Virus record (IMG/VR): IMGVR_UViG_3300019742_000008
Span: 1-38,811 of that record
Source of the DNA: a virus
Length of the DNA stretch: 38,811 nucleotides
Strand: one strand, 5' to 3'
This document shows, in pieces, positions 18,492-30,883 of this stretch. Numbering within the stretch: position 1 is the first letter of the stretch; each line of letters opens with the position of its first letter. The translations under genes and the position numbers were made by a program. The notes under the pieces are model-generated. The model worked only from the letters and a program-made list of their open reading frames with translations, was not told where the DNA came from and searched no databases.

Positions 18492-19420
18492 ACGAAAGTT
18501 TATACGATAATATCGAAGAAAATTTACCTGAAGAAAAAACATTTGATGAATTATTTAAAGAATGTTTTGTAGATTTAGATAAACCAGTTAAACCATTAGA
18601 CGTATTAGTTTATATAGGTTTAGATGAAAGAGGCTTTAAATCTCCTGCAATTACGAGGGGTGAGTTAAGCTGTATTTATGCACCTTCAAAGGCTAAAAAA
18701 TCATTTAATAAATCACTTATTGAAGCTGCATTTATAGGTGGAAATTCAACAAACTATTCTGATTTAATAGTTGGTAATAGGAAAACAAACGGATATGTTA
18801 TATCTATAGATACTGAACAAGGTGAGTTTTATGCATCTAATTCATTCAGAAGAGTTGAAAGAATTGTAGGTAATAGGTATGATAAATTTTTACCCTTTCA
18901 AATGAGAAAACAAAGCGTAAAAGATAGATTAAGGTTTTTAGATAATTTAATTTGTAATTCTAAATACTCTGGAGATATTGATATTATTACAATTGATGGA
19001 TTAGCTGATTTAGTAACAAATACAAACGATATAGAAACAAGTGCAGAACTTGCTGAAAAGTTATTACAATGGTCTGCATTAGGTTTACATATTTGTTTTA
19101 TACTTCATAAAAATCCAAATTCTCAAAAAGCTAGAGGTCACTTAGGAAGTGTAACAACTATTAAATGTGAAACTATGATTTCAATGGATAGACTTATAGA
19201 TGAAAATGGAGAAGGTGAAAAGAATACAGTTAAAATTAGTTGTAGTCATTCTAGGGGTAGAGATTTTGAAGATTTTTATTTAACAGTAAATGACGATGGT
19301 TTACCATTTACACATAGTAATGAATCAGAAAATATATTTAAAGAACCAGGATATATAGAACCACCATTGAAAAATGTTGATCCAAAAGATGCTTTTACAG
19401 ATGAAGAAGTACCATTTTAA
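18479..19420 (+). CDS. RepA/DnaB-like replicative ATPase (AAA_25-type)
   Basis: 313 aa. RecA-fold features: GELSCIYAPSKAKKSF (61-76) at the Walker A position, VISIDTEQGEFYASNSFRRV (107-126) as motif 1a, IDIITIDGLADL (167-178) with Asp173 as Walker B, and HICFILHKNPNSQKARGHLG (204-223) as the sensor loop. The family contains hexameric helicases such as RepA. The Walker A reads APSKAKKS, without the usual second Gly, although the catalytic Lys-Ser pair is kept. Last gene of the replication operon. Confidence 0.75.
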   Translation: MDEIDESLYDNIEENLPEEKTFDELFKECFVDLDKPVKPLDVLVYIGLDERGFKSPAITRGELSCIYAPSKAKKSFNKSLIEAAFIGGNSTNYSDLIVGNRKTNGYVISIDTEQGEFYASNSFRRVERIVGNRYDKFLPFQMRKQSVKDRLRFLDNLICNSKYSGDIDIITIDGLADLVTNTNDIETSAELAEKLLQWSALGLHICFILHKNPNSQKARGHLGSVTTIKCETMISMDRLIDENGEGEKNTVKISCSHSRGRDFEDFYLTVNDDGLPFTHSNESENIFKEPGYIEPPLKNVDPKDAFTDEEVPF

Positions 19421-19450
19421 AATATTTATTAAATAAATATGAGTATATAG

Positions 19451-19481
19451 TTGTTTTATAAATAAATAGTTTGTAAATTTG
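19451..19481 (+). promoter_or_regulatory. Host-type promoter at the head of the accessory region
   Basis: TTG (19451-19453)-N20-TAAATTTG (19474-19481), a perfect match to TTG/TAnnTTTG. The non-coding stretch 19421-19735 also holds a right-end copy of the cassette boundary (about 19487-19520) and a 32-aa membrane peptide gene. Confidence 0.65.
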
Positions 19482-19570
19482 AAAATAAACACAACTCACA
19501 GTTAACTGTATAGTGTTTGGTTGGTTTAAATATATTAAAAATAATTTTATTAATTAAAACATAAAGATAA

Positions 19571-19669
19571 ATGTTTATACTTGGATTTATTATAGGTTAT
19601 TTAATAGCTTTAGTTAATGTATTTATTATATATTATAATTACAAAAACAATCCTAAAAATCAGCCATAA
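19571..19669 (+). CDS. Single-helix membrane peptide
   Basis: 32 aa: MFILGFIIGYLIALVNVFII, then a short polar tail (YYNYKNNPKNQP). One transmembrane helix. It lies between two boundary repeats, like the other cassettes. Too short to classify. Confidence 0.45.
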   Translation: MFILGFIIGYLIALVNVFIIYYNYKNNPKNQP

Positions 19670-19677
19670 ATGACTTT

Positions 19678-19705
19678 TAACTTAATACTGTAACATTAGT
19701 AGCGT
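19678..19705 (+). repeat. 28-base boundary repeat, copy 1
   Basis: Identical over 28 bases to 29020-29047. Both copies stand 31 bases before the start codon of an unrelated small gene, and both begin TAACTTAATACTGTAAC. Confidence 0.7.
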
Positions 19706-19735
19706 GAATTTAACAATAAACTTAATAAAAATATA

Positions 19736-20029
19736 ATGACAAAAGCAGAAGAAATATTAAATAAGCACCTTAAAATAATGGATGCAGAAACAATGATAGG
19801 AAAGCATGGAAGAACACATAAAGCTGTTATAAATGCAATAAATGAAGCTATTGATTATGCGCATAGTTCTCTACAGTTAAATGAAAAGTACAAGAAAGTT
19901 ACCTTTAATGAGTGGATAGATTTAATGGAATACAAAAAGATAAAAGGTGAATGGTATAATAAACACGGATATTTAAGGAGTTACCAAAGTTTAATAGTGA
20001 AATACGAAAGTATGATGTCAGACCTTTAA
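19736..20029 (+). CDS. Small helical hypothetical protein
   Basis: 97 aa. An N-terminal half with a helix pair (TKAEEILNKHLKIMDAETM, then AVINAINEAIDYAHSSL) of a type frequent in small Bacteroidetes phage proteins, then FNEWIDLMEYKKIKGEWYNK. First sizeable gene of the accessory array; preceded by the 28-base boundary repeat. Function unknown. Confidence 0.55.
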   Translation: MTKAEEILNKHLKIMDAETMIGKHGRTHKAVINAINEAIDYAHSSLQLNEKYKKVTFNEWIDLMEYKKIKGEWYNKHGYLRSYQSLIVKYESMMSDL

Positions 20030-20098
20030 TTGTTTAGAACGAATTAGTAAATGATTGAGTTTAAGTAAAAAGAGAAATAATTTTAAATAAATAACAAG

Positions 20099-20362
20099 AT
20101 GAAAAAAGTATTAAAAATGTTAGAGTTAAATAACAATGTTAAATTAATTATTTACATAGTTGTTGCAAGTGTTTTATTAAGCTCTTGCACAAAACCAAAA
20201 AAACCAATAGAAAACTTTAAAGGAGGTATTATATATGACAAACATACTTACACAGCTCCAACTGAATATTCTTATGATGTTAGAACTAAAGATAAATTTG
20301 TTAAAGTTTTTGTATATAAGTTAGATCATGACCTTTATAAAATAGGTGATACAATTAAATAA
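20099..20362 (+). CDS. Small lipoprotein
   Basis: 87 aa. Hydrophobic segment IIYIVVASVLLSSC with lipobox LSSC at about residues 27-30, then a polar domain (TKPKKPIENFKGGIIYDKHT onward). It would be anchored to the envelope. Phage-encoded lipoproteins often block superinfection; that is an inference here. A 69-base boundary repeat precedes it. Confidence 0.6.
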   Translation: MKKVLKMLELNNNVKLIIYIVVASVLLSSCTKPKKPIENFKGGIIYDKHTYTAPTEYSYDVRTKDKFVKVFVYKLDHDLYKIGDTIK

Positions 20363-20419
20363 AATATTTGTTACAACTGGACACATAAATGATTAGTTAA
20401 ATATAAACACAAAACAGAT

Positions 20420-20689
20420 ATGAGATTAAGACCTAAAGAAAAAGCTGAGAATATATTAAAACAAGCTATACATAAAATTGAGGATTGGAACTTAAAATAT
20501 TGTTTAGAAAAAGACATAAAAGAACATAAATCCAGTTGTAGTAATGTAGCTTGGTTTAGATGGAAGGGTGTGGCTGAGCTTTGTATAATAGAACAACTAA
20601 ATTTTATGAATGATTTAGGATGGGATATTGAAACAAATGGTAATGTAATTTACTTTACAGAGGTACTCGAAGAATTACAAAACCTTTAA
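20420..20689 (+). CDS. Hypothetical protein
   Basis: 89 aa. A basic helical start (MRLRPKEKAENILKQAIHKI), a Cys/Trp-containing middle (HKSSCSNVAWFRWKGVAELC) and an acidic end (VIYFTEVLEELQNL). Start context ACAAAACAGATATG is shared with the gene at 22854. Not recognised. Confidence 0.5.
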   Translation: MRLRPKEKAENILKQAIHKIEDWNLKYCLEKDIKEHKSSCSNVAWFRWKGVAELCIIEQLNFMNDLGWDIETNGNVIYFTEVLEELQNL

Positions 20690-20695
20690 TTAATT

Positions 20696-20850
20696 ATTTA
20701 TAAGAGTTGGTGATTAGTAATTGAGGGGTTTGATGGTTCTTTTATATAAGGCTTTTAAGCTGAGGTTTAACAACCGTTACCGAAAGTATTTTAGACTAAT
20801 ACACAATTATTAACACGCAACTAATTTTATCTAATTCGTTGCGTGTTAAT
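20696..20850 (+). repeat. Intergenic element E1
   Basis: Begins TTATAAGAGTTGGTGATTAG, contains GCTGAGGTTTA and CCGTTA like the other elements, and ends with a perfect 13-base-pair inverted repeat ATTAACACGCAAC (20809-20821) / GTTGCGTGTTAAT (20838-20850). The right arm carries the -33 of the next promoter. Confidence 0.6.
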
Positions 20851-20869
20851 AAAAAATAAAGTACATTTG
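20839..20869 (+). promoter_or_regulatory. Host-type promoter giving a leaderless transcript
   Basis: TTG (20839-20841)-N20-TACATTTG (20862-20869), then AATT and ATG at 20874. With the start only 4 bases from the -7 box, transcription should begin at or next to the ATG. A near-copy stands at 24823-24853. Confidence 0.7.
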
Positions 20870-20873
20870 AATT

Positions 20874-21158
20874 ATGGAAAATAAAAAATTTGAATTTAAG
20901 CAAGGAACTTACGGAGATTACATTACTTTTAATGGTAAAGAATTAAGTAAAAAAGAACTTTTAAAAATATTAAATGACAAGCAATTAAATTTAGGTGTAG
21001 TTAGCAGTAGTTGTTTAGTTGATATGGCAGAACAAATGCAAAAAGAAAACAAAGTAATGATAAAAGGTGCAAAAGGACACGATTCTTTGGCTTACTACAA
21101 AGGTATAGATTTAGGAATAGATAGAATTATTAAGTTAATAAAGCGCAATTACTGCTAA
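20874..21158 (+). CDS. Hypothetical protein from a leaderless promoter
   Basis: 94 aa. N-terminal half is beta-like (KKFEFKQGTYGDYITFNGKE), followed by QLNLGVVSSS and a helical C-terminus. A 19-base DNA word (20979-20997) coding for KQLNLG is identical to one in the gene at 24858, which has the same promoter and the same length, though the rest of the proteins differ. Its stop (TGC TAA) falls inside the boundary motif GCTAAC. Unknown function. Confidence 0.55.
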   Translation: MENKKFEFKQGTYGDYITFNGKELSKKELLKILNDKQLNLGVVSSSCLVDMAEQMQKENKVMIKGAKGHDSLAYYKGIDLGIDRIIKLIKRNYC

Positions 21159-21209
21159 CTACATTAGAGTAACATTAGTACGGTTTAATACAAAAGTAAA
21201 TATCGAATT

Positions 21210-21356
21210 ATGAACAGTGAAAAACTTATAGAATTAAAGATAAAAAGTAAAGAGTTAATACAATTAAATGAAAACTATCATAAATATATATACCTGACAA
21301 GTTTTGAATGTATTAATAGGGAAAAAACAAGGTTAGTAACAAGCTTTGGATATTAG
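21210..21356 (+). CDS. Small coiled hypothetical peptide
   Basis: 48 aa: MNSEKLIELKIKSKELIQLN, then ENYHKYIYLTSFECINREKT. An amphipathic helix with leucine spacing. It fills the first part of the 21159-21518 gap, the rest being element E2. Confidence 0.4.
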   Translation: MNSEKLIELKIKSKELIQLNENYHKYIYLTSFECINREKTRLVTSFGY

Positions 21357-21362
21357 TATTAA

Positions 21363-21500
21363 TTGTTACGCATTAGTTGGTGTTTGTCTTGGATAAGTTC
21401 TCGCAGAAGATTACAAATAGGTATTACGTTGAGGTTTAAAGAAAGATACCGTTAACACTACGTAATATGTTAAAATTGCTACTAACTTTATTAGAGTATG
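21363..21500 (+). repeat. Intergenic element E2
   Basis: Left end TTGTTACGCATTAGTTGG, right end ACTAACTTTATTAGAGTATG. Bases 21374-21411 are identical over 38 positions to 27957-27994 in E8. It contains TCGCAGAAGAT, TTGAGGTTTA, ACCGTTA and CTACGTAATATG, the conserved interior words. Confidence 0.7.
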
Positions 21501-21518
21501 AATTGTTAAATTTAAATT

Positions 21519-21752
21519 ATGAGAATAGATAATATAAAAACGGAAAGTGAATTTTGGGATTTTGCAGATGTATGGTATCAAAGAACTAAAAGATTAGCTT
21601 TTATTATGAATAATGAAACTGAACCAAATAAAAAAGCAAAAGCGACTAAACTATGGAATATAATGTATAAAAGAATGTTAAAAATTATACCAATAGCAAC
21701 AAAATTTAAAACATTTATACCTAAACCTCGATTTGAAAAAGGTGGTATTTAA
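21519..21752 (+). CDS. Hypothetical basic protein
   Basis: 77 aa, helical and basic (SEFWDFADVWYQRTKRLAFI, then KKAKATKLWNIMYKRMLKII). It sits alone between elements E2 and E3, the clearest single-gene cassette layout. Unknown role. Confidence 0.5.
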   Translation: MRIDNIKTESEFWDFADVWYQRTKRLAFIMNNETEPNKKAKATKLWNIMYKRMLKIIPIATKFKTFIPKPRFEKGGI

Positions 21753-21756
21753 TAAT

Positions 21757-21891
21757 TTATACGCATAGTTAACATTTAGTTTTAGGTAAGCTATCGCAGA
21801 AGATAACAAATATTATTTAAGCTGAGGTTATCACTTATTACTCAGGATTCCTACGTAATATGCAATTATTACTCCCAACTTTAAATTATAA
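21757..21891 (+). repeat. Intergenic element E3
   Basis: Left end TTATACGCATAGTTAACA, right end CTCCCAACTTTAAATTATAA. Its first 50 bases closely match E4 (from 23961). Interior words TATCGCAGAAGATAA, GCTGAGGTTA and CTACGTAATATGC are present. Confidence 0.7.
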
Positions 21892-21906
21892 AAGAAGTAA
21901 AGAATT

Positions 21907-22167
21907 ATGAAAACAAAAATTAAAGGAATTTTAACAGAATACAATTTTGACAGAATAACATTTGATGAAGCTACAGACGCTTTATTACTTTTATGTAATA
22001 GTTCTCAGCTTTTGTTATGCATAGATAGAGGAGAGTGGAAAAACCATTTAACTGATGGTAAAAAATATAAACTTATTTGCGAAAGTGATGAAACTTACTG
22101 TTTAATAGATGATAGTGGTAAAGCTCATTATTATAACAAAGATAGGTTTGAATTAGTTGAAGCATAA
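21907..22167 (+). CDS. Small protein with C-terminal SH3-like domain
   Basis: 86 aa. N-terminal helical module (ILTEYNFDRITFDEATDALL) and a C-terminal module LLCIDRGEWKNHLTDGKKYK, then LICESDETYCLIDDSGKAHY and RFELVE. The second module shares its pattern with the gene at 24129 (C-D at start, L-T-x-G-K-x-Y, then R-F-E) and resembles small SH3-like barrels. Likely a protein-interaction module; target unknown. Confidence 0.55.
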   Translation: MKTKIKGILTEYNFDRITFDEATDALLLLCNSSQLLLCIDRGEWKNHLTDGKKYKLICESDETYCLIDDSGKAHYYNKDRFELVEA

Positions 22168-22248
22168 TAATTGCTTATGAACTGTATTAGAGTATGGCAA
22201 GTAAAAAAATAAAAGCGATGGCTGATAATTTTGGTAAAAATTAAAACA

Positions 22249-22452
22249 ATGGAGACTAAACTATATAAATGCGCACCATTAAATTGGGATGAAAGACGAT
22301 CCTTTTTAATATGTAAAAGAGTTATTGGAAGAAAATATGTTTTTTACGAGGTTGTAAAAAGATGGAGTATAAATGGATATGGAGAAGAAGGAACGTTCTC
22401 AAATTCTTTAAAAGGAGTTACATATTCAGAAAACGAAATAAAATTAATATAA
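22249..22452 (+). CDS. Small hypothetical protein
   Basis: 67 aa from ATG 22249 (METKLYKCAPLNWDERRSFL). A TTG at 22231 in frame is a weaker start. Beta-rich with Tyr/Lys (ICKRVIGRKYVFYEVVKRWS). A right-end boundary copy with GGCAAGTAA lies at 22176-22206. Confidence 0.45.
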   Translation: METKLYKCAPLNWDERRSFLICKRVIGRKYVFYEVVKRWSINGYGEEGTFSNSLKGVTYSENEIKLI

Positions 22453-22465
22453 AAACAAAATAAAA

Positions 22466-22768
22466 ATGAAAAATTTAACGGATAGAAAATTAAACATAAG
22501 AACGTCTTTAATTAATTTTAGAGATGGGCATATAAATATAGAGGAAGCTGAAAAAAGAATTTTTAAAATGGTGGAGGATAAACCGAAATTGAGAGTTTAT
22601 CCAAAAGTATTAGAAAATAATGGAGATGTAGAAGATGTATTTTTTAATATAGATATAGTCGTAGATAAGCAAAACAATCTTATGGTTATGGATAGAAGCA
22701 ATGAGGATGTAAATGATTTTATAGATTGTAACACGTTAATTGTTAAACACATAAAGCTTAGACCTTAA
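22466..22768 (+). CDS. Hypothetical protein
   Basis: 100 aa. N-terminal helical module similar in type to those at 21907 and 24129 (NIRTSLINFRDGHINIEEAE), then a beta-rich domain (KPKLRVYPKVLENNGDVEDV, FFNIDIVVDKQNNLMVMDRS). Follows the gene at 22249 after 13 bases. Not recognised. Confidence 0.5.
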   Translation: MKNLTDRKLNIRTSLINFRDGHINIEEAEKRIFKMVEDKPKLRVYPKVLENNGDVEDVFFNIDIVVDKQNNLMVMDRSNEDVNDFIDCNTLIVKHIKLRP

Positions 22769-22853
22769 TTAAATTTAGTATGTGTAGATGGCTTATTTTT
22801 TTATTTGTTATACGCATAGTTATAAGATGTAAACGTTTAAATACAAAACAGAT

Positions 22854-22973
22854 ATGGAAATATTAACACATATTGTAAAAGGTATTTTGATAATAATAGC
22901 ATTTATAAGCTTTAGTACACTTGTATTTTTAGCACTTGCTTTTATTGGTAAGCTATTAGATAAAAGTAGGTAG
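22854..22973 (+). CDS. Single-helix membrane peptide
   Basis: 39 aa with a long hydrophobic helix (GILIIIAFISFSTLVFLALA) and a basic end. It is framed by inverted boundary copies: CGCATAGTTATAAG before the gene and CTTATAACTGTATTAG after it. Role unknown. Confidence 0.5.
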   Translation: MEILTHIVKGILIIIAFISFSTLVFLALAFIGKLLDKSR

Positions 22974-23055
22974 TTTATACCTTATAACTGTATTAGAGTA
23001 TGAGTAGGAAAAAAAGAGGAATGCAAAATATTTTGAAAAAATATAATATTTATAG

Positions 23056-23085
23056 TTGTTTATTGAATATAAAGTATTATCTTTG
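23056..23085 (+). promoter_or_regulatory. Host-type promoter of a small operon
   Basis: TTG (23056-23058)-N19-TATCTTTG (23078-23085), perfect -7. It drives the genes at 23126, 23293 and 23430. Here the leader is about 35-40 bases. Confidence 0.65.
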
Positions 23086-23125
23086 AGTATCGAAATAAGA
23101 TAATAACTAATAAAAAAATAAAATT

Positions 23126-23293
23126 ATGTATACTTTAAACCAAATGACAGAAGCAAGAAACTTAGTAGGAACTGATATTAATGAAACTGAATATGTAGAT
23201 CATTTAGTTATGGAAAATGAAAAAACTTATTTTCAGATAATTAGTTTAAAAGGAGATGAAAGATTATTAGAAATTACAGAGATTGTAAAATAA
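23126..23293 (+). CDS. Small hypothetical protein
   Basis: 55 aa (MYTLNQMTEARNLVGTDINE onward), alpha/beta. Its TAA overlaps the next ATG (TAATG), so the three genes 23126-23747 form a coupled operon. No family recognised. Confidence 0.5.
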   Translation: MYTLNQMTEARNLVGTDINETEYVDHLVMENEKTYFQIISLKGDERLLEITEIVK

Positions 23294-23433
23294 TGGGAAA
23301 CAAAGAAATAACTCAATACTTTTCTAAATGGAGAAAGTGTTTGGTTTTTTTTACGGATAGCATTGGTAATAAGTACAAACCAAATAAAGCAGTAATAAAA
23401 GAATTTAATAAGTTTAAATATAAATTAAGATGA
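23293..23433 (+). CDS. Small basic hypothetical protein
   Basis: 46 aa, Lys/Arg/Phe-rich (ITQYFSKWRKCLVFFTDSIG, then NKYKPNKAVIKEFNKFKYK). Overlaps both neighbours (TAATG and ATGA). Could bind nucleic acid. Confidence 0.5.
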   Translation: MGNKEITQYFSKWRKCLVFFTDSIGNKYKPNKAVIKEFNKFKYKLR

Positions 23434-23747
23434 AAGATATTAATGAGGATAAAGTTTTAAAAATACTAACTAATTCGTTTGTGTGTGTTGGTGAAAATAT
23501 GAATATATGCACTAAAACAGATAAAGATTTAATAATGTTAGCTAAAGATATATCTAAGTTGATGAATGGAATTGATTTAGAGAATGTAAGGAGGATTATA
23601 GATACTGGAACTTATATAGGTGGTAGTGGATTTACGCAAACCGATAGAAATATATTAAAAATTGAAATACATAGTTTTGGAAATTACATAGGTAATTGTT
23701 TAAAAATAGGAGATAAAGTAGATTTAATTCATTATCATAATAAATAA
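23430..23747 (+). CDS. Hypothetical protein
   Basis: 105 aa. Helical first half (EDKVLKILTNSFVCVGENMN, DLIMLAKDISKLMNGIDLEN) and a Gly-rich second half (YIGGSGFTQTDRNILKIEIH). Third gene of the coupled operon. Unknown. Confidence 0.5.
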   Translation: MKDINEDKVLKILTNSFVCVGENMNICTKTDKDLIMLAKDISKLMNGIDLENVRRIIDTGTYIGGSGFTQTDRNILKIEIHSFGNYIGNCLKIGDKVDLIHYHNK

Positions 23748-23760
23748 AAAAAATATAAAA

Positions 23761-23922
23761 ATGGAACAATATGAAAAACCAATACTTGGAATATTAACAG
23801 AGGAGCAAGTAAATAGAGGTGTAAGTGTTTGTACACTTTGTAAATATAAACAACACCCTTACGGAGGAGATGATTGTCGTAAATGTATAAATGAAGGACA
23901 ACCACACCAATTCTATTTATAA
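23761..23922 (+). CDS. Small zinc-ribbon protein
   Basis: 53 aa with two Cys pairs (CTLCKYKQHPYGGDDCRKC), a CxxC-N9..10-CxxC zinc ribbon; the N-terminal MEQYEKPILGILTEEQVNRG reads as a short helix. A probable DNA- or protein-binding peptide. It is followed by the E4 hairpin and T run. Confidence 0.5.
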   Translation: MEQYEKPILGILTEEQVNRGVSVCTLCKYKQHPYGGDDCRKCINEGQPHQFYL

Positions 23923-23930
23923 TTTAATTT

Positions 23931-24106
23931 ATGCGGTGTAGATGGAGCTTTTTTTATTACTTATACGCATAGTTAATATTTAGTTTTAGGTAGGATTTCG
24001 CAGAAGATAATTAATAAAGCTAATAGTTGAGGTTTAAAAAGCATTACCGCAAATTATACGTAATATGCTAAAATTAATTTTAACTGTATTAGTGTTTGGC
24101 AAGTAA
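23931..24106 (+). repeat. Intergenic element E4 with leading hairpin
   Basis: Opens with TATGCGGTGTA...T7...TATACGCATA, an inverted pair around a T run (terminator-like), then the common words TTTCGCAGAAGATAA, TTGAGGTTTA, ACGTAATATGC and the right end TAACTGTATTAGTG, then GGCAAGTAA. A second copy of the GTGTAGATGG hairpin lies at about 22779-22819. Confidence 0.65.
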
Positions 24107-24128
24107 ATAAAAATTAAAAATAAATATT

Positions 24129-24452
24129 ATGGATATAAGTGAAAGAGTTTTAAAAACAATTAGAAAAATTGCAATTAATAGAAATATACCTGAAGACAGA
24201 GTTACTTGGGAGCAAATAGCAAAAGAACAAGCAATTGAATTAAACGATTTATTTGCTAAACGCATAGTTAACTGCCAAAGGGAACAGTTGGTTTGTGTAG
24301 ATAATGCAAATTACGACTACCTTACTATCGGAAAAGAATATGAACTTTTAGAGGAAAGCAAAGAGTATTATAAAATAGAGAATGATTTAGGTGGTATTGC
24401 AAGTATGAGTAAAGTTAGGTTTGAAAAAGTATCTAAAACCAATTGCAGTTAA
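24129..24452 (+). CDS. Small protein with C-terminal SH3-like domain
   Basis: 107 aa. A helical N-terminal module ends at LNDLFAKRIVN, and the SH3-like module begins at LVCVDNANYDYLTIGKEYEL, as in the gene at 21907. The DNA at the joint (24259-24271, ACGCATAGTTAAC) is itself a copy of the cassette boundary, as though two units had fused. Its stop lies in another boundary copy (GCAGTTAACTG). Confidence 0.55.
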   Translation: MDISERVLKTIRKIAINRNIPEDRVTWEQIAKEQAIELNDLFAKRIVNCQREQLVCVDNANYDYLTIGKEYELLEESKEYYKIENDLGGIASMSKVRFEKVSKTNCS

Positions 24453-24496
24453 CTGAATAGTGCATAACAAGTAAATAGTAAATAAAACAAATTATT

Positions 24497-24784
24497 ATGG
24501 ATATAAAAAAAGATATTAAAGAAACATTAAACGCTTACAAAAGTGAAGTTGACAATTTTAATGATGCAATTTTTGAAGATAAGATTAATGCATTAACAGA
24601 CGATTTGAATGATTTATTTGTTATGCACAAAGTTAACCGAAGTTTACCAATAGATACAAGACAAATTTTTAGATGGTTACTTGGGTATGAAGATTTTCCG
24701 CAAAGAGTGAGTGGTGAAGGTAGATATTACTGGAGAAAATATTTAAGAAGAAAGTTATCGGAGATAGGTATAGAGATAAAGTAA
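24497..24784 (+). CDS. Hypothetical helical protein
   Basis: 95 aa. N-terminal module ends LNDLFVMHKVNR, parallel to LNDLFAKRIVN in the preceding gene, and then diverges (TRQIFRWLLGYEDFPQRVSG, then RYYWRKYLRRKLSEIGI, basic and aromatic). The joint again contains AGTTAACCGAAG, a boundary-like word shared with the gene at 24858. Unknown function. Confidence 0.5.
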   Translation: MDIKKDIKETLNAYKSEVDNFNDAIFEDKINALTDDLNDLFVMHKVNRSLPIDTRQIFRWLLGYEDFPQRVSGEGRYYWRKYLRRKLSEIGIEIK

Positions 24785-24822
24785 GTGGTAAATTACGGAT
24801 TAACGAATTTAGCTAAAATTAG

Positions 24823-24853
24823 TTGCGTGTTAAAATAAATTATAGTATATTTG
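24823..24853 (+). promoter_or_regulatory. Host-type promoter giving a leaderless transcript, copy 2
   Basis: TTG (24823-24825)-N20-TATATTTG (24846-24853), AATT, ATG at 24858. The bases GTTGCGTGTTAA over the -33 are the same as in the promoter at 20839. Confidence 0.7.
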
Positions 24854-24857
24854 AATT

Positions 24858-25142
24858 ATGGAAAAAATATTAAAACAATTTTTTAAAGAAGCAAACAGTT
24901 ATCAAAGTATTGATCCAACTTGTTTTGATTTAGATGAGTTTACAGAAACTTGGTTAAAAGACAATAAGAAGCAATTAAATTTAGGTGAAGTTAACCGAAG
25001 TAAGCGTGTAAATATTATTACCTTTGAGAATAATACAAGGTGTTTTAAATTAAACGAAAAAGAACTACTTAATATGATAAAGAAAAACAGACTTGAAAAA
25101 GGCGATATACACTATAAATGTGAACTTGTGAGAAAATATTAG
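24858..25142 (+). CDS. Hypothetical protein from a leaderless promoter
   Basis: 94 aa (MEKILKQFFKEANSYQSIDP onward). It shares promoter layout, length and one 19-base word (24969-24987, KQLNLG) with the gene at 20874 but little else. The C-terminal half is basic and helical. Unknown. Confidence 0.5.
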   Translation: MEKILKQFFKEANSYQSIDPTCFDLDEFTETWLKDNKKQLNLGEVNRSKRVNIITFENNTRCFKLNEKELLNMIKKNRLEKGDIHYKCELVRKY

Positions 25143-25193
25143 TAGCTTATTACGGATTAACTTTATTAGAATAACAAATGAAAAAATAAAACA

Positions 25194-25397
25194 ATGATGT
25201 TAATAGATACAAAATTTAAATTAGGAGATACTGTTTACTTACAAACAGACATTGAACAACAAAAACGATTAGTCACAGGTATTAATATTAGACCAGGAGG
25301 TTTAGTTTACTTATTGAATTGCGGAGTGACTGAAAGTTATCACTATGATTTAGAAATAAGCGAAGAAGTAAATGTATTAATTACAAGCACAAACTAA
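25194..25397 (+). CDS. Small SH3-like protein
   Basis: 67 aa. FKLGDTVYLQTDIEQQKRLV, then TGINIRPGGLVYLLNCGVTE and SYHYDLEIS form the pattern of a small barrel protein common in Bacteroidetes and their phages, with the 'lGD.VYl.tD.eq....V.gi...p....Y.l..g...s.H...Ei' signature. Function unknown. Start is one of two adjacent ATGs. Confidence 0.6.
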   Translation: MMLIDTKFKLGDTVYLQTDIEQQKRLVTGINIRPGGLVYLLNCGVTESYHYDLEISEEVNVLITSTN

Positions 25398-25420
25398 GTT
25401 TTTGTGATTTTTATATTTAG

Positions 25421-25554
25421 TTATTCACTAGTTGGTGATTAGTTTTAAAGAATCTATCGCAGAATTTAATTAATAAGAAAGTAGTTGAGGTTATGAACAA
25501 GGTATCGCAAAAATATAGTCATATGTTAAAATTAACTCCAACTGTATTAGTATA
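25421..25554 (+). repeat. Intergenic element E5
   Basis: Left end TTATTCACTAGTTGGTG pairs with right end CTCCAACTGTATTAGTATAA. Interior words TATCGCAGAA and GTTGAGGTTA are present. Confidence 0.7.
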
Positions 25555-25589
25555 AGATTTGTAATGAATTATATAAAAGTATGTTTTAA

Positions 25590-25621
25590 TTAGGATATTA
25601 GAATATATTATATTAAATTTG
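25590..25621 (+). promoter_or_regulatory. Candidate host-type promoter
   Basis: TAAATTTG (25614-25621) is a perfect -7; a weak TTA (25590-25592) lies 21 bases upstream. A boundary copy TTATGCATAGTTATAAC lies between it and the gene at 25682. Confidence 0.5.
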
Positions 25622-25681
25622 AATATTATTAATAGACTTTGCATTATAAATTTTATGCATAGTTATAACAAGTAAAACGAT

Positions 25682-25816
25682 ATGAAAGACAAGGTAACAA
25701 CTACAGTAATAATAGCAACAATATGTTTGATAGTTTGGACTATAATGAGTAAATATATTGGATTTGAAACAACTGTTTTGTGTGCTCTAGCTTTAATTTA
25801 TGGTAGCCAAAAGTAG
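25682..25816 (+). CDS. Two-helix membrane peptide
   Basis: 44 aa: VTTTVIIATICLIVWTIMS and TTVLCALALIYGS are two hydrophobic helices with a short loop, and the ends are charged. Similar in size to small holin-like or exclusion peptides, but it lies far from the lysis genes. Confidence 0.5.
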   Translation: MKDKVTTTVIIATICLIVWTIMSKYIGFETTVLCALALIYGSQK

Positions 25817-25856
25817 TTTTATTTGTTATAACTTAATAGAATAAAAATTTTTAATT

Positions 25857-26009
25857 ATGAAATATATAACAATAATGTTGATGAAATATCAACTTAGAAA
25901 AGCAAAAAGACAACAACGTAAAAACGATAATACAATAGTGAAACAAGCGTTTGAGCATTTAATAGAGAATTATAAAAGTACAATAATGTTTTTAGACGCT
26001 AATAATTAA
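25857..26009 (+). CDS. Small basic hypothetical protein
   Basis: 50 aa. MKYITIMLMKYQLRKAKRQQ, then RKNDNTIVKQAFEHLIENYK: a basic N-terminal helix and an amphipathic second helix. Boundary copy GTTATAACTTAATAG precedes it and E6 follows. Confidence 0.45.
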   Translation: MKYITIMLMKYQLRKAKRQQRKNDNTIVKQAFEHLIENYKSTIMFLDANN

Positions 26010-26016
26010 TTGTATT

Positions 26017-26148
26017 TATTCACTAGTTGGTTGTGGTTTTTGAGGCAATGAATGGTTTATAACAAATACAAGACTAACAAAGGTTAGCTTAAATACCATT
26101 AGCATTAAAACTAATACACAAATATCACTCCCAACGAACTAGTATAAC
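26017..26148 (+). repeat. Intergenic element E6
   Basis: Left end TTATTCACTAGTTGGTTG and right end CCAACGAACTAGTATAACC are complementary at their tips. The 12-base word ACTAATACACAA is shared with E1. Confidence 0.65.
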
Positions 26149-26167
26149 CTAAGATAAAATTTTAAAA

Positions 26168-26923
26168 ATGATATTAAGAAGAATGGGTAATAAAACAAAA
26201 CTTGCGGCTGGAATAATTAAATATTTTCCTAAGCACAAAATGTATATTGAGCCTTTTTTTGGTGCTGGAGGTATGTTTTTTAATAAGCCTAAAGCAAAGT
26301 ATAATATTGTAAATGACCTTGATAGTGATGTATTTAATTTATTTAATGTAGTCAGCACAAAAAAAGACGAATTAGAACAAGCCTTTTATCAAATGCCTAT
26401 ACATAGTGATTTACTTGAATATTGGAAGGAAAATATTGAATTGTGTGAAGTTAGGAAAGCATTACGGTTTTTATTTTTAAGTAACATAACTTTTATGGGT
26501 GCAGGAGCCTCAATTAAATATGGCACAGAAAACCCGAAAAACAGTGTTTATAAATATATAGACAAGACTTTTAAGTTAATACATGATGTTCAATTTATGA
26601 ATAAAGATTTTAAGGTGTTTTTTAATAGCATACAGATTAGGGATGTAGAACAAACCTTTATTTATTGTGATGCGCCATATTTAGACACTGACGATAATTA
26701 TGTTAAAGGCTTTACTAATGAGGATAGTTTTGATTTATTTGAAGCACTGACTGAAACAAAGTGTAAATGGGCTATGAGTGAATTTGACCACCCTTTTATA
26801 TTAGACCAAGCCAAAAAGCGAGGGCTTAATATTATTTTTGTAGGCGAAAGACAAAATTTAAAGAATAGAAGAGTTGAGGTTTTAATAACAAACTACGAAA
26901 ATAAACAAGGGGTTTTATTTTAG
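26168..26923 (+). CDS. D12-class (Dam-like) DNA adenine methyltransferase
   Basis: 251 aa. RRMGNKTKLAAGIIKYFPKH at the N-terminus (cofactor motif X), motif I YIEPFFGAGGMFFN near residue 31, motif IV FIYCDAPYLDTDDNYVKGF near 163-180. The catalytic DPPY is DAPY here, an uncommon variant. The target is likely an adenine in a short site such as GATC. Orphan, without a partner nuclease; phages use such enzymes against host restriction. Only distantly related to the two other methyltransferases in this window. Confidence 0.85.
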   Translation: MILRRMGNKTKLAAGIIKYFPKHKMYIEPFFGAGGMFFNKPKAKYNIVNDLDSDVFNLFNVVSTKKDELEQAFYQMPIHSDLLEYWKENIELCEVRKALRFLFLSNITFMGAGASIKYGTENPKNSVYKYIDKTFKLIHDVQFMNKDFKVFFNSIQIRDVEQTFIYCDAPYLDTDDNYVKGFTNEDSFDLFEALTETKCKWAMSEFDHPFILDQAKKRGLNIIFVGERQNLKNRRVEVLITNYENKQGVLF

Positions 26924-27059
26924 GTTATGCGGAGTTAACTGTGGGCTTTGGGAATGATACAAAAACATTACCGTTTAAACAAAAATAAGATCCAAGTAAG
27001 CGCATTGTTGAGGTTTATTAAAACCAACCCAACTCACATTTAACTGTAGCAGTATTATG
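26924..27059 (+). repeat. Intergenic element E7
   Basis: Left GTTATGCGGAGTTAACTGTG pairs with right CACATTTAACTGTAGCAG (AGTTAA-CTGTG against CACAT-TTAACT), with TTGAGGTTTA inside. It starts at the methyltransferase stop codon. Confidence 0.65.
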
Positions 27060-27115
27060 AAAAGTATTGTATAATTTAAGAATAGATTAATAAATAATAA
27101 ATAAAATTTAAGATT

Positions 27116-27379
27116 ATGAGAAATTTGATTAAAAGTAAAGTGAGTAAATATTTTTTATATACGCTGTTATGCGCTTTTTTAGTTGGGTGTAAAAATGACC
27201 AAAATGTAATAGATACTATTGAATGGATTGAAAAATCAGAAAAACCAGTACAAGTAACTAAACATAGTATGAATGGTTGGACTTTGGAAAATAGATATAC
27301 TTTAATAGATAATAAAGGTAAAATATATAGTACTGGTTGTGTTGAATTAACACTACCTAAAACTATAATTGCGCATTAA
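27116..27379 (+). CDS. Small lipoprotein
   Basis: 87 aa. Signal FLYTLLCAFLVGC with lipobox LVGC (Cys25), followed by KNDQNVIDTIEWIEKSEKPV and a small beta-rich domain (TKHSMNGWTLENRYTLIDNK onward). An envelope protein; possible superinfection exclusion. Its TAA overlaps the boundary CATTAACGCATTG. Second lipoprotein of the region. Confidence 0.6.
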   Translation: MRNLIKSKVSKYFLYTLLCAFLVGCKNDQNVIDTIEWIEKSEKPVQVTKHSMNGWTLENRYTLIDNKGKIYSTGCVELTLPKTIIAH

Positions 27380-27475
27380 CGCATTGTGTATGGCAAGTAG
27401 ACGAAGAACGAACCTCTAAATTAAAAACTGAATATTAATAGGCTATTTGCTATACACTTTGTTAGCAGTAGTTAA
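27374..27475 (+). repeat. Intergenic element E10 (distinct hairpin)
   Basis: TTGTGTATGGCAAGTAG (27384-27400) pairs with CTATTTGCTATACACTTTG (27443-27461) with few mismatches, leaving a loop of about 40 bases. The element ends in GTTAGCAGTAGTTAA. Confidence 0.65.
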
Positions 27476-27486
27476 AATTAAACAAG

Positions 27487-27744
27487 ATGGAAGTTAAAAA
27501 TTTAAAAATGGCTGGTTGGTACGCATCTTATATGCAAGACGACCAAGGAGAAGCCTTAATAGAATGCCAAGAAAAGAAGATAAAACAATTAACTGACCTT
27601 ATAGAAACTATAAAAGGCGAAATTGAATTAAACAAAGAACCAAAAGAATACAATGCTGAAATGGTTTTATATTCGATTGAAGCATTAATAGACCAAACTA
27701 AAGAAGTAGAGCATATAAGAGGTTACTTTAAATGGGTAGGTTAA
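27487..27744 (+). CDS. Hypothetical acidic coiled protein
   Basis: 85 aa. KKIKQLTDLIETIKGEIELN reads as an amphipathic, coiled helix, with an aromatic N-terminus (LKMAGWYASYMQDDQGEALI). It is exactly framed by 15-base inverted sequences, GTTAGCAGTAGTTAA (27461-27475) and TTAATTACTGCTAAC (27741-27755), 14 of 15 matching. Confidence 0.55.
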   Translation: MEVKNLKMAGWYASYMQDDQGEALIECQEKKIKQLTDLIETIKGEIELNKEPKEYNAEMVLYSIEALIDQTKEVEHIRGYFKWVG

Positions 27745-27790
27745 TTACTGCTAACTTTATTAGAATATGAATTTTTAAAAAATAAATTAT

Positions 27791-27934
27791 ATGAAAACAA
27801 AAATAAATTACTGTGTAAACTGTGAAGAAGAAGTAAAGTTTATAAATGGTAAATGTGAAAATTGTAAAGGAAAGTATAATGATGTAGTACCAGCATCTTG
27901 TAGAAACGATTATAAATATGACTTAGGCGATTAA
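27791..27934 (+). CDS. Small zinc-ribbon protein
   Basis: 47 aa with CVNCEEEVKFINGKCENC, a CxxC-N11..12-CxxC zinc ribbon, then a polar tail with a further Cys. Second ribbon peptide of the accessory region. Probably DNA- or protein-binding. Confidence 0.5.
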   Translation: MKTKINYCVNCEEEVKFINGKCENCKGKYNDVVPASCRNDYKYDLGD

Positions 27935-27945
27935 TTTTTTAATTG

Positions 27946-28084
27946 TTTATATTCACTAGTTGGTGTTTGTCTTGGATAAGTTCTCGCAGAAGATCATAAA
28001 CAGATAAACAAGTTATGGTAATCACAAGGTACGATTAGCACTACGTAATATGCCAATATAAACTCCAACTGTATTAGTATAACC
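27946..28084 (+). repeat. Intergenic element E8
   Basis: Left end TATTCACTAGTTGGTGTTT is complementary to right end AAACTCCAACTGTATTAGTA. Bases 27957-27994 are identical to E2. CACTACGTAATATG is also shared with E2. Confidence 0.75.
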
Positions 28085-28112
28085 AATTGTAAACAACAAA
28101 AATAAAAGTATT

Positions 28113-28850
28113 ATGAAATATATGGGAAGCAAAAATAGATTTGCAAAAGAGATTTTACCAATTATATTGAAAGGTCGCAAGCCTGAGCAGTATTATATAG
28201 AGCCATTTGCTGGAGGTATGAATATGATTGATAAAGTAACAGGAAACCGAATAGCAAACGATATACACACTGAACTTATAGAGATGTGGAAAGCACTTGT
28301 TTACGACCTTTGGAAAGCTCCAAGAAATGTAAGTAAAGAATTATACCATAAAATTAAAAATGAAAAACAAAATTATAGCAAAAAGTTAGTTGGATGGACT
28401 GGTTTTTTATGTAGTTACAGTGGTAAGTATTTTGGTGGATATGCAGGAGATTACCCTGAAAGCAGAAGATTAAAGAATGGTAAATTACCAAACTACCAAA
28501 CAGAAGCAATAAATAGTACTTCTAAACAAATACCAAAATTAAAAGGTGTTGAGTTTCTTAATTTAAAATATAATGAAATAGAGATACCGAAAGAAAGTAT
28601 TATTTATTGTGACCCACCTTACCAAAATACGACTGGATATAGCAATAGCTTTAATCATATTTTGTTTTGGGATTGGGTAAGAGAAAAAAGTAAACAAGGG
28701 CATAAAGTGTATGTAAGTGAATATAATGCACCTAAAGACTTTGTTTGCGTATGGGAGAAAGAAACAAAAAGCCAATTAAGTGCAAATGGCGTTATTGGAG
28801 GAAATAAAAAAAGCGTTGAACGGCTATTTGTTTATAATGGTTATGCATAG
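28113..28850 (+). CDS. D12-class DNA adenine methyltransferase, paralogue A
   Basis: 245 aa. MKYMGSKNRFAKEILPIIL (motif X), YYIEPFAGGMNMIDKVTGNR (motif I), IIYCDPPYQNTTGYSNSF (motif IV, intact DPPY), C-terminal KVYVSEYNAPKDFVCVWEKE. It is closely related to the gene at 29779, with the first 56 bases identical, so the pair is a duplication. The last codons (GGT TAT GCA TAG) merge with a boundary copy TTATGCATAGTTA, which supplies the stop. Likely modifies phage DNA against restriction. Confidence 0.88.
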   Translation: MKYMGSKNRFAKEILPIILKGRKPEQYYIEPFAGGMNMIDKVTGNRIANDIHTELIEMWKALVYDLWKAPRNVSKELYHKIKNEKQNYSKKLVGWTGFLCSYSGKYFGGYAGDYPESRRLKNGKLPNYQTEAINSTSKQIPKLKGVEFLNLKYNEIEIPKESIIYCDPPYQNTTGYSNSFNHILFWDWVREKSKQGHKVYVSEYNAPKDFVCVWEKETKSQLSANGVIGGNKKSVERLFVYNGYA

Positions 28851-28890
28851 TTATTATTAGTTAAAGAGAAATACAAAACAATTACCATAT

Positions 28891-29016
28891 ATGATACCTA
28901 AAGAAGAAAAAACAGAAACAAGTGAAAAAGAGTTAAGAAGTTATAAAAAACACTTAAATACTTGTGCTAAAAACCGTAGGGAAAGGAAGAAGCGAAAAAA
29001 GTCAAACTTTAATTAA
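28891..29016 (+). CDS. Small highly basic peptide
   Basis: 41 aa, ending in NRRERKKRKKSNFN. Probably nucleic-acid binding. Preceded by ACAAAACAATTACCATATATG and followed by the 28-base boundary repeat. Confidence 0.45.
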   Translation: MIPKEEKTETSEKELRSYKKHLNTCAKNRRERKKRKKSNFN

Positions 29017-29019
29017 TTA

Positions 29020-29047
29020 TAACTTAATACTGTAACATTAGTAGCGT
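29020..29047 (+). repeat. 28-base boundary repeat, copy 2
   Basis: Identical to 19678-19705, again about 30 bases before an ATG (29078). Confidence 0.7.
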
Positions 29048-29077
29048 TGAAATATTAACAAATTAAATTTAAAAACA

Positions 29078-29371
29078 ATGAACAAAGAACAATTATTTGA
29101 AGAAATAGACGAAATATATAGTGAATGGCACGGTGGTGTTTTACATATTGGAAAAGAAAGAGAAGATCGTATTAAAAAAATACTAAGCAAAGCTATTAAT
29201 TTTACAGATAGTTATGAAATTGTTAAGGAAAAGAATACGCATACTTTCGAGGTTGATTTAAACAGTAAGAAAGCACAAAAATACAGATGTGAACAAGCAG
29301 AAAAAATACTTAATACACCTTGTAAGGTATATCTTTTCGATGGTGAAAACTATATTGAACTTAAACCTTAA
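29078..29371 (+). CDS. Hypothetical protein
   Basis: 97 aa, charged (EEIDEIYSEWHGGVLHIGKE, DRIKKILSKAINFTDSYEIV, then EVDLNSKKAQKYRCEQAEKI). Alpha/beta pattern without a recognised signature. Between two boundary copies. Confidence 0.5.
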   Translation: MNKEQLFEEIDEIYSEWHGGVLHIGKEREDRIKKILSKAINFTDSYEIVKEKNTHTFEVDLNSKKAQKYRCEQAEKILNTPCKVYLFDGENYIELKP

Positions 29372-29430
29372 TATTTTATAACTTTACGCTAATAAAAACA
29401 GTATTAACAAATATTTTAAATTATAGAATT

Positions 29431-29535
29431 ATGACGAAAGTTAAAGATAAAATTATAGTAGGAATAATGATATTTATAATTATTAGACTTGCTTTTGCAA
29501 TTACAGTTGGTAAACAAGTAATAAGTTTACCTTAA
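29431..29535 (+). CDS. Single-helix membrane peptide
   Basis: 34 aa: basic MTKVKDK, hydrophobic IIVGIMIFIIIRLAFAITV, short tail. One transmembrane helix. Flanked by boundary-like TAACTTTACGCTAATAA and GTTAACTACAGTTAA. Confidence 0.45.
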   Translation: MTKVKDKIIVGIMIFIIIRLAFAITVGKQVISLP

Positions 29536-29576
29536 TAATATTGTTTTTATTAATTAGTTAACTACAGTTAAAAAAT

Positions 29577-29735
29577 ATGTTCGAAAGAAAGATAATAGTA
29601 AACGGAAGTAAAGTTTTAAATAAAATACGTTCGAAGTTTAATGAACAACCCTTATACAAAAGAGCTTTGTTTGATATAAAGTTTGAGTTAAAGGAGATTA
29701 AGTTGAGGTTAATTAACTTTTTTAATTGTTTTTAA
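29577..29735 (+). CDS. Small basic hypothetical protein
   Basis: 52 aa (MFERKIIVNGSKVLNKIRSK, then FNEQPLYKRALFDIKFELKE). Basic and amphipathic. No family recognised. Confidence 0.4.
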   Translation: MFERKIIVNGSKVLNKIRSKFNEQPLYKRALFDIKFELKEIKLRLINFFNCF

Positions 29736-29778
29736 CGTACACTTATAACCATTGTAAACACAAATAAAAGACAGAATT

Positions 29779-30501
29779 ATGAAATATATGGGAAGCAAAA
29801 ATAGATTTGCAAAAGAGATTTTACCAATTATATTAAAAGATAGAGAGCCTGAACAGTATTATACTGAACTATTTGCAGGAGGTATGAATACCATTGATAA
29901 AGTAACAGGGAACAGAATTGCAAACGATATACACACCGAACTTATAGAGATGTGGAAAGCCCTTGTTTATGATGGTTGGCTTGCACCTACTGAAATAAGT
30001 AGAGAAACTTACAAAATGATTAAAGACAAAAAACAAAATTATGAACCTTGGTTAGTTGGATGGACTGGATTTAATTGTAGTTACAGCGGTAAGTATTTTG
30101 GAGGATATGCAGGACGTACAAAAACAAAGTTAGGCACAATAAGAGATTACCAACTTGAAGCAAGAAAAAACACTTATAAACAAGTAGAAAACTTAAAAGG
30201 AGTTGTTTTTGTGAATGATGAATACAACAAAGTTAAAATACCAGAAAATAGTATTATTTATTGTGACCCACCTTACGAAAATACGACTAAATATAGTAAT
30301 GACTTTAATCATATTTTGTTTTGGGATTTTGTAAGAGAAAAAAGTAAACAAGGACACAAAGTGTACGTAAGTGAATATAATGCACCTAAAGACTTTGTTT
30401 GCGTATGGCAGAAAGAAGCTAAAAGTAGCCTTAGCGCAAATGGTGTTATTGGTAAAAGTAAAACAAGCGTTGAAAAACTATTTGTTTATAATGGTTATTA
30501 G
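29779..30501 (+). CDS. D12-class DNA adenine methyltransferase, paralogue B
   Basis: 240 aa. Same motif order as the gene at 28113, with YCDPPYENTTKYSNDF intact. Motif I reads YYTELFAGGMNTIDK, so the usual E-P-F is E-L-F; this could alter cofactor binding. The middle, target-recognition part (about 75-140) is the most divergent from paralogue A, which suggests different sequence preference. Its stop falls in boundary E9 (GGT TAT TAG). Confidence 0.85.
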   Translation: MKYMGSKNRFAKEILPIILKDREPEQYYTELFAGGMNTIDKVTGNRIANDIHTELIEMWKALVYDGWLAPTEISRETYKMIKDKKQNYEPWLVGWTGFNCSYSGKYFGGYAGRTKTKLGTIRDYQLEARKNTYKQVENLKGVVFVNDEYNKVKIPENSIIYCDPPYENTTKYSNDFNHILFWDFVREKSKQGHKVYVSEYNAPKDFVCVWQKEAKSSLSANGVIGKSKTSVEKLFVYNGY

Positions 30502-30626
30502 GAGTTGGTTGTAGGCTTTTGGAGGAGCTTGGCGCATTAATAACAAATAAGCTATTACGTTGAGGTTAAAAAACAATTACCGTTAACGATTAAAGCCAAC
30601 CAAACTTACTACCAACTACTAATAAC
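30494..30626 (+). repeat. Intergenic element E9, longest perfect tips
   Basis: GTTATTAGGAGTTGGTTGTA (30494-30513) pairs with TACTACCAACTACTAATAAC (30607-30626) with 3 mismatches in 20. TTGAGGTT and ACCGTTA lie inside, so the whole could fold into one hairpin of about 130 bases. Confidence 0.75.
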
Positions 30627-30649
30627 ATTAATTCAAAAAATTGAACCAC

Positions 30650-30883
30650 ATGAAAACCATTGAAAACACTAAGAAAACTTTAGATTTTATAGCTATAAAG
30701 TTTGAAACAGACCAATTAGATAATTATAGTTTAGTTCAAATTATTGAACTTGGATTCTCTTATTTAAATCTTATGACTATTTCAGATTATGCTAAAAAGA
30801 ATAACCTTAGTTATAATGGTGTTAAGAAGTGTAGAGAAATTATAACCATAGGGAATGTTAAATTTGTAATAGATAACGATTAA
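30650..30883 (+). CDS. Small DNA-binding-like protein
   Basis: 77 aa from ATG 30650; the in-frame TTG at 30641 is a weaker start. The C-terminal LMTISDYAKKNNLSYNGVKK, then CREIITIGNVKFVIDND follows the excisionase/MerR-type pattern ('isdYAk.n.lSy.tVkk......i...g.kyvI.'), a helix-turn-helix with a wing. It could be a small regulator. Starts the last plus-strand gene group. Confidence 0.5.
   Translation: MKTIENTKKTLDFIAIKFETDQLDNYSLVQIIELGFSYLNLMTISDYAKKNNLSYNGVKKCREIITIGNVKFVIDND

Follow-up and report, generated by a model that had tools for sequence, protein, structure and literature searches.

Which kind of element is formed by the small genes and related intergenic repeats at positions 19501-30616 of IMG/VR record IMGVR_UViG_3300019742_000008, and what could move its parts? 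The window, i.e., the whole record of 38,811 bases, stems from a tailed phage. The original prediction, made from the letters alone, had described the region as small genes alternating with imperfectly palindromic elements, resembling a gene-cassette array without a recombinase. We consider it probable that the region is an integron-like cassette array that lacks a recombinase of its own and is served in trans by a XerA-like enzyme exchanging at AAC triplets. In form, it is an integrase-less array resembling a cluster of attC sites lacking integron integrases (CALIN), which keeps an attI-like boundary at 30616.

The region parses into 45 alternating segments on the plus strand (AAC-X-GTT-Y-AAC, and so on), separated by two alternating junction types, left (~TTATAC-GCATA-GTTRR) and right (~YYAAC-TGTATTA-GTATAA). 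Nearly every X and Y segment is flanked by a private inverted repeat of ~20 nt. At hand-picked junctions, arms paired far better with their own partner than with swapped ones, both for X (mean 31.8 vs. 15.7) and for Y (28.7 vs. 13.6), and 0/20000 permutations reached the observed pairing sum for either segment type; the same holds for Y if the first six bases are ignored. As hand-picked junctions could bias this test, we wrote a chain search that uses no prior positions. It recovered nearly the same junctions, adding two Y segments and skipping one weak pair. The chain score, which carries no formal E-value and is to be read against controls (shuffled, reverse-strand, and flanking sequence), was 526 in the window, compared to 76-114 in 12 dinucleotide shuffles, 58-108 in the remaining genome, and 144 on the reverse strand. 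Because the search requires AAC and GTT, the invariance of both triplets is no evidence.

All nine full-length elements described in the original prediction were found again; they belong to the repeat families D3-D10 and correspond to gene-free Y segments of 110-116 bp. Their tips are mutually complementary as claimed, and beyond this each X and Y pairs best with its own partner. Single ends do occur at further gene boundaries, but several of them delimit gene-containing Y segments. Since such gene-carrying Y segments bear the same arms, the nine gene-free elements were dropped as candidate att sites. Exact-pattern scans of viral and genome contigs for element interiors (e.g., CGCAGAAGAT..TTGAGGTT) returned chance coding matches, a known relative, or nothing, and the interiors are therefore not the conserved part.

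These properties would fit cassettes composed of one X and one Y, reaching from one AAC to the next, with the gene or genes placed in either segment or spanning the two. Once the cassette is excised as a circle, its arms would unite in one long, imperfect, attC-like hairpin (Y arm - AAC - spacer - X arm ... X arm - spacer - GTT - Y arm), and X and Y would both carry private complementary arms because the two arm sets combine into this one structure. The layout of attC sites, an imperfect hairpin with R and L box pairs and AAC...GTT polarity, is present, with spacers of ~5-8 and 2-6 nt and paired arms; the core consensus GTTRRRY/RYYYAAC was found at 0/22 Y starts in the window. The claim that the arms are oriented opposite to attC proved to be an artefact of taking gene-free Y segments as att sites: around X, or on the minus strand read outward, the polarity is that of integrons. 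Read in this direction, outward from a recombinase, both the order and the crossover (G/TT, cut after G) would be as in an integron, and only the genes would be turned round.

The same chain occurs in the near relative L056, the Polaribacter phages P12002S/L, and Danklef_1 (40-58 per kb, compared to ~4-14 per kb in shuffles), and also in the Freya phages. Arrays are likewise present in the group of the window phage, in L198 and in L212, whose flanking phosphoesterase is 81% identical and whose array lies in the same slot. Chain scores were unremarkable in P12024S/L, Harreka, phi10:1, phi19:1, and contigs G002-G004. The attI-like right boundary of the window (30614-30640, plus strand) reads AAC/TACTAATAACATTAATTC, with the crossover mark after AAC, and is comparable to the attI-like AAC/TATTATATAT sites of recombinase-bearing arrays. 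The window, L056, and L212 have homologous right flanks starting at this AAC of the last right junction, but different cassettes before it. The attI-like sequence following AAC is TACTAATAAC in the window and ACCCCTATAAC in Freya.

Comparison of relatives, as suggested along with the original prediction, revealed differences of whole X+Y cassettes exactly at the sites in Danklef, P12002, and Freya. Over the compared region, Danklef_1 and Danklef_2 show 99.9-100% identity, apart from one 777-bp unit carrying a methyltransferase gene. This unit has right junctions at both ends, and its joins, CTCTAAC/ and CAGGTAAC/ (cut at the mark), share only the letters TAAC. Blocks that differ between P12002S and P12002L are also bounded by right junctions. 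In Freya, six of the seven genomes (Freya_1, 2, 5, 6, 9, and 10) constitute a nested series, i.e., C2; C2-C4; C2-C5; C2-C5+C8; C2-C6; and C2-C7; the seventh, Freya_8, carries C2-C4, C6, and C7 and misses C5. All Freya joins lie exactly after AAC with zero gap. The series, readable as gain or as loss, varies at one fixed site, ACCCCTATAACAACAATAAG, which adjoins a tyrosine recombinase of 271 amino acids (aa). L093 and L095 share 99.7% identity on the right side of the last AAC, and on its left they are unrelated. A fixed attI-like insertion site beside the recombinase, with cassette changes at that end, was thus found in Freya and L093/L095; the window has the conserved boundary at 30616 alone.

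In unrelated IMG/VR contigs, too, the chain lies directly upstream of recombinases that are distantly related to the Freya enzyme (36-39% identity). A six-sequence profile yielded 80 recombinase loci, 55 of them with enough upstream sequence; IMG/VR contigs are predictions, some of which may not be viral, and the isolates are Freya, Danklef, Leef, and P12002. The chain was found directly upstream on the recombinase strand in 53/55 loci (median 50 per kb; shuffles: mean 9.3, maximum 14.3, 0/55 passing), and downstream in 2/51. Across 49 distinct arrays, 290/305 cassette open reading frames (ORFs) lie on the recombinase strand. Cassette genes hence read toward the recombinase, which is the genuinely unusual feature of orientation. 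The last AAC of these 49 arrays precedes the matched recombinase coding region by a median of 76 bp, and a TATTATATAT-like motif often follows it.

The array recombinases conserve the catalytic residues R, H-x-x-R, H, and Y. The best sequence match among solved structures was 4a8e, a XerC-like protein of XerA type, and the XerA model gave 146-191 bits (below its cut-off of 220). Scores with the integron integrase model TIGR02249 were 96-154 bits, below the curated cut-off of 265, and residues 175-259 of IntI4, which hold the integron-specific region, face only query residues 172-208 (~37 residues). Complete integrons are defined by an intI tyrosine recombinase that has an extra domain, specific to IntI, around patch III (PMC9668308). 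The enzymes of the relatives are PF00589-positive yet lack this region, and are therefore not IntI by that definition. In the window, Pfam detected no tyrosine recombinase (PF00589), serine recombinase, or Y1 transposase, in agreement with the predicted absence of a recombinase from the genome. The gene is also absent from P12002S/L, and the partial contigs of relatives of the window yielded no copy of it. A chain of the same kind (44 per kb) lies on a Chryseobacterium plasmid (L217; NZ_CP041688.1) downstream of a 347-aa recombinase, in opposite orientation; this is possibly a cellular or plasmid version.

We suggest that the substrate is a folded single strand, in which a tyrosine recombinase of the Freya type would exchange strands at the AAC triplet, and that cassettes would enter next to a fixed attI-like L-spacer-R site. 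Freya-type phages encode such a XerA-like enzyme (271 aa) directly beside the array. The window phage has retained the sites and the attI-like boundary but no recombinase, so that changes in its array would rely on an enzyme from the host or from a co-infecting phage. The idea of a site-specific, fold-driven capture system acting in trans is thus borne out in relatives by AAC breakpoints and recombinase linkage, but not for the window phage itself. Several observations weigh against our interpretation. No gain, loss, or exchange of a cassette was seen within the window's own species. One P12002S/L crossover lies at the far edge of the spacer, adjoining the L box, instead of at AAC. Many X segments differ from the loops of classical attC sites in being long and coding. 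Furthermore, the Danklef isolates differ by a cassette despite a TGA stop in their recombinase, which fits action in trans but is no proof of it; the stop lies in the gene at 41006-41455 of the Danklef_1 record (L065).

Several other explanations have to be weighed, beginning with a plain CALIN, in which ordinary attC cassettes are moved by the integron integrase (IntI) of a host. Qi et al. 2023 reported 17 CALINs in virulent phages, including P12002L, and tested two P12002L attC sites, of which P12002L_attC2 recombined with attI1 by IntI1 (PMC9892861). As P12002L shares the chain, this speaks for ordinary cassettes, but GTTRRRY was found at only 2/97 Y starts over eleven arrays and 26/252 in 49 further arrays, and the array-adjoining recombinases lack the IntI-specific region and stay at 96-154 bits against the cut-off of 265. 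We therefore regard a plain CALIN as unlikely. Less likely still are modules of the Xer/pdif type, with double-strand, dif-like junctions in alternating orientation recombined by host XerC/XerD. The L-spacer-R junctions, their alternating orientation, the XerA-like nature of the array recombinase, and the single crossover at the other spacer edge would all be expected from such modules; beyond AAC/GTT, however, conservation is loose, and the private arms of ~20 nt, which double-strand sites would not need, are kept as pairs and not as sequence.

Mobile regulatory cassettes of T4-like phages provide a precedent for homologous exchange at boundary repeats. Some Y elements are indeed homologous repeats, and cross-phage homology edges fall within 20 bp of junctions in 40% of cases, compared to 17% at random. 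Nevertheless, the joins in Danklef, Freya, and L093/L095 share only ~4-8 nt, joins at the AAC triplet occur in relatives without flanking homology, and the nested series varies at one fixed site adjacent to a recombinase, which makes homologous recombination at repeated boundaries quite improbable as the driving process. The lowest probability is assigned to the elements being retained intergenic RNAs, as the original prediction had also considered, or terminators. Hairpins are present, and three Y elements fold as long ones; most elements, however, fold no better than shuffles (z -4.7 to +1.1), so that single-element folding was discarded as the main signal. An Rfam search gave no family match even at E 5, and the pairing arms lie within coding sequence and enclose whole genes. 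The cassette exchange seen at junctions in relatives likewise argues against an RNA or terminator, and a retained RNA is hence unsupported. The integron-like array served in trans remains our preferred explanation.

Among known systems, integrons (IntI, attI, and attC) share with the arrays described here a recombinase beside a fixed insertion site, differences at that end, the GTT/AAC crossover, and the logic of a folded site. Here, however, the recombinase is XerA-like without the IntI-specific region, GTTRRRY is rare, genes are directed toward the recombinase, X segments are often long and coding, and stems reach well past the R box. Phage CALINs have in common with the window cassettes in a phage, attC-like sites without an integrase, and methyltransferase cargo, and the P12002L chain is the same; the window differs by its continuous chain of ~23 cassettes, its site-spanning genes, and the linkage of this kind of array to a non-IntI recombinase. 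The recombinase-associated acquired interbacterial defence (rAID) loci of Bacteroidales (PMC12247911) likewise combine a tyrosine recombinase, co-oriented short genes, and conserved intergenic motifs. In rAID, the recombinase lies upstream of co-oriented orphan immunity genes and the cargo consists of type VI secretion system (T6SS) immunity genes, whereas the window has no recombinase and the enzyme of its relatives lies downstream, at the 3' end, and in phages. A rAID-like locus on a Bacteroides ovatus plasmid (L218; NZ_CP081918.1) consists of an integrase and, behind it, co-oriented genes of immunity type between which short motifs recur; the alternating chain was not detected in it. The pdif modules of Acinetobacter plasmids are accessory modules between alternately oriented sites with a recombinase in trans, a further likeness. 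They use conserved 28-bp XerC/XerD sites, whereas the junctions here, as compared among themselves and not with a Flavobacteriia dif sequence, appear to share only AAC/GTT and private pairing arms, conservation being otherwise loose.

Part of this picture was known, as a phage CALIN and one IntI1-active P12002L site have been published. In the searchable literature, which covers few subscription journals, we found no account of the chain logic, of a XerA-type enzyme at the end of the array, of the recombinase linkage, or of the Freya series. The original Freya paper took the recombinase gene as a hint of a temperate lifestyle and mentioned neither integrons nor cassettes (PMC8776804). On balance, we lean toward a separate integron lineage in Bacteroidota phages, with a XerA-type enzyme lacking the IntI domain, hairpin cassettes whose genes read toward the enzyme, cassette-wise swapping, and service in trans to phages without a recombinase. 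Such a system may resemble an ancestral intermediate between Xer recombinases and integron integrases. It would offer a concrete mechanism by which flavophages gain and trade their numerous small accessory genes, among them DNA methyltransferases that likely counter host restriction. Co-isolated phages here display a nested cassette series that is normally inferred only in bacterial integrons. As integron-like behavior is tied to a recombinase without the IntI-specific domain, both the need for this domain and the origin of integrons from Xer become testable; for the same reason, software that requires the domain would not classify the recombinase-bearing loci as complete integrons.

The whole array, ~23 complete X+Y cassettes preceded by a leading Y, spans 19501-30616 and is supported by the unsupervised chain search and the permutation test; all its features lie on the plus strand. 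The leading Y segment (19501-19681; chain search) contains a 32-aa ORF (19571-19669). Junction reading and the chain search both support the next four cassettes: 19682-20040 (X184+Y175), whose gene 19736-20029 crosses the left junction at 19866; 20041-20377 (X118+Y219), whose lipoprotein-like gene 20099-20362 crosses the junction at 20159; 20378-20821, with a gene in X328 (20420-20689) and a gene-free Y116 (element 20696; Y 20706-20821); and 20822-21159 (X178+Y160), in which gene 20874-21158 crosses the junction and its TAA stop lies within the terminal TAAC. Cassette 21160-21486, known from junction reading, combines X216 (gene 21210-21356) with a gene-free Y111 (element 21363; Y 21376-21486). 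In cassette 21487-21879, composed of X281 (gene 21519-21752) and a gene-free Y112 (element 21757; Y 21768-21879), Y pairing is weak, and the unsupervised search skipped the junction pair.

The remaining cassettes come from the chain search. Cassette 21880-22182 (X121+Y182) holds a junction-crossing gene (21907-22167), 22183-22988 has two genes in X636 (22249-22452 and 22466-22768) and a 39-aa gene in Y170, and 22989-24084 carries four genes (23126-23922) in X983, followed by a gene-free Y113 (element 23961; Y 23972-24084). Genes again cross the junction in 24085-24453 (X182+Y187; gene 24129-24452), 24454-24804 (X178+Y173; gene 24497-24784), and 24805-25161 (X185+Y172; gene 24858-25142). Next are 25162-25542, with X269 (gene 25194-25397) and a gene-free Y112 (element 25421; Y 25431-25542), and 25543-25832, in which a gene-free X119 is joined to Y171 (gene 25682-25816; arms GTTATAACAAGTAAAA / TTTTATTTGTTATAAC). 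Cassette 25833-26135 consists of X193 (gene 25857-26009) and a gene-free Y110 (element 26017; Y 26026-26135), and 26136-27044 of X798 with a D12 adenine methyltransferase gene (26168-26923) and a gene-free Y111 (element 26924; Y 26934-27044). A lipoprotein-like gene (27116-27379) crosses the junction in 27045-27380 (X121+Y215), and 27381-27755 pairs a short gene-free X80 with Y295 (gene 27487-27744). Cassette 27756-28069 comprises X203 (gene 27791-27934) and a gene-free Y111 (element 27946; Y 27959-28069), 28070-29023 comprises X780 (D12 methyltransferase 28113-28850) and Y174 (gene 28891-29016), and 29024-29382 (X187+Y172) has a junction-crossing gene (29078-29371). The last two are 29383-29736, with X174 (gene 29431-29535) and Y180 (gene 29577-29735), and 29737-30616, with X767 (D12 methyltransferase 29779-30501) and a gene-free Y113 (element 30494; Y 30504-30616). 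One array thus holds three D12 adenine methyltransferase genes. Those at 28113-28850 and 29779-30501 are 81% identical duplicates whose homology is confined to the X segments.

Genes run across the left junction in nine cassettes, which places the pairing arms inside coding sequence (e.g., 24129, 24497, 24858, and 20874). Junction-crossing genes of the window (24129, 24497, 24858, and 20874), L056 (3518 and 4914), and P12002S share an in-frame peptide (..LNDLF..xVN, ..QLNLGVVS, ..LSLNGVG), which recurs because the site sequence gets translated. Domain shuffling was set aside as a reading of these genes in favor of the simpler one, i.e., that a cassette is X+Y and a gene may cross the inner junction. 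Some exchange at left junctions is possible in view of X-only and Y-only sequence homologies between phages. X lengths in the 49 recombinase-linked arrays fall into narrow classes, 40-44 (27), 75-84 (48), 105-114 (22), 115-124 (97), and ~180-199 (12), with little between. In the isolate arrays, most X segments of equal length have little interior similarity, and homology as the origin of the classes found little support and was not retained.

The array sits between a conserved ATPase-like gene (18479-19420), for which a peptide-pattern search returned no relatives, and a conserved small gene (30650-30883). The window phage is related to the Nonlabens phages P12024S/L (terminase 57% identical), and IMG/VR contig 3300019752_000017 (L056/L057) is a near relative (terminase 98% identical). 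In comparison with L056/L057, the window termini adjoin each other, and the genome is therefore circularly permuted. A terminase match to the record "Shigella phage Henu10" (OQ791282.1) has the same coordinates as that to Riemerella phage PT15, and the host label of the former may be wrong. Finally, promoter-like stretches of the TAnnTTTG type were noticed within the array at 20807-20867, 23050-23096, and 24815-24857. Two of the stretches hold related repeats beside a hairpin or half of a hairpin, and the one at 23050-23096 resembles stretches in the Danklef and Freya phages.

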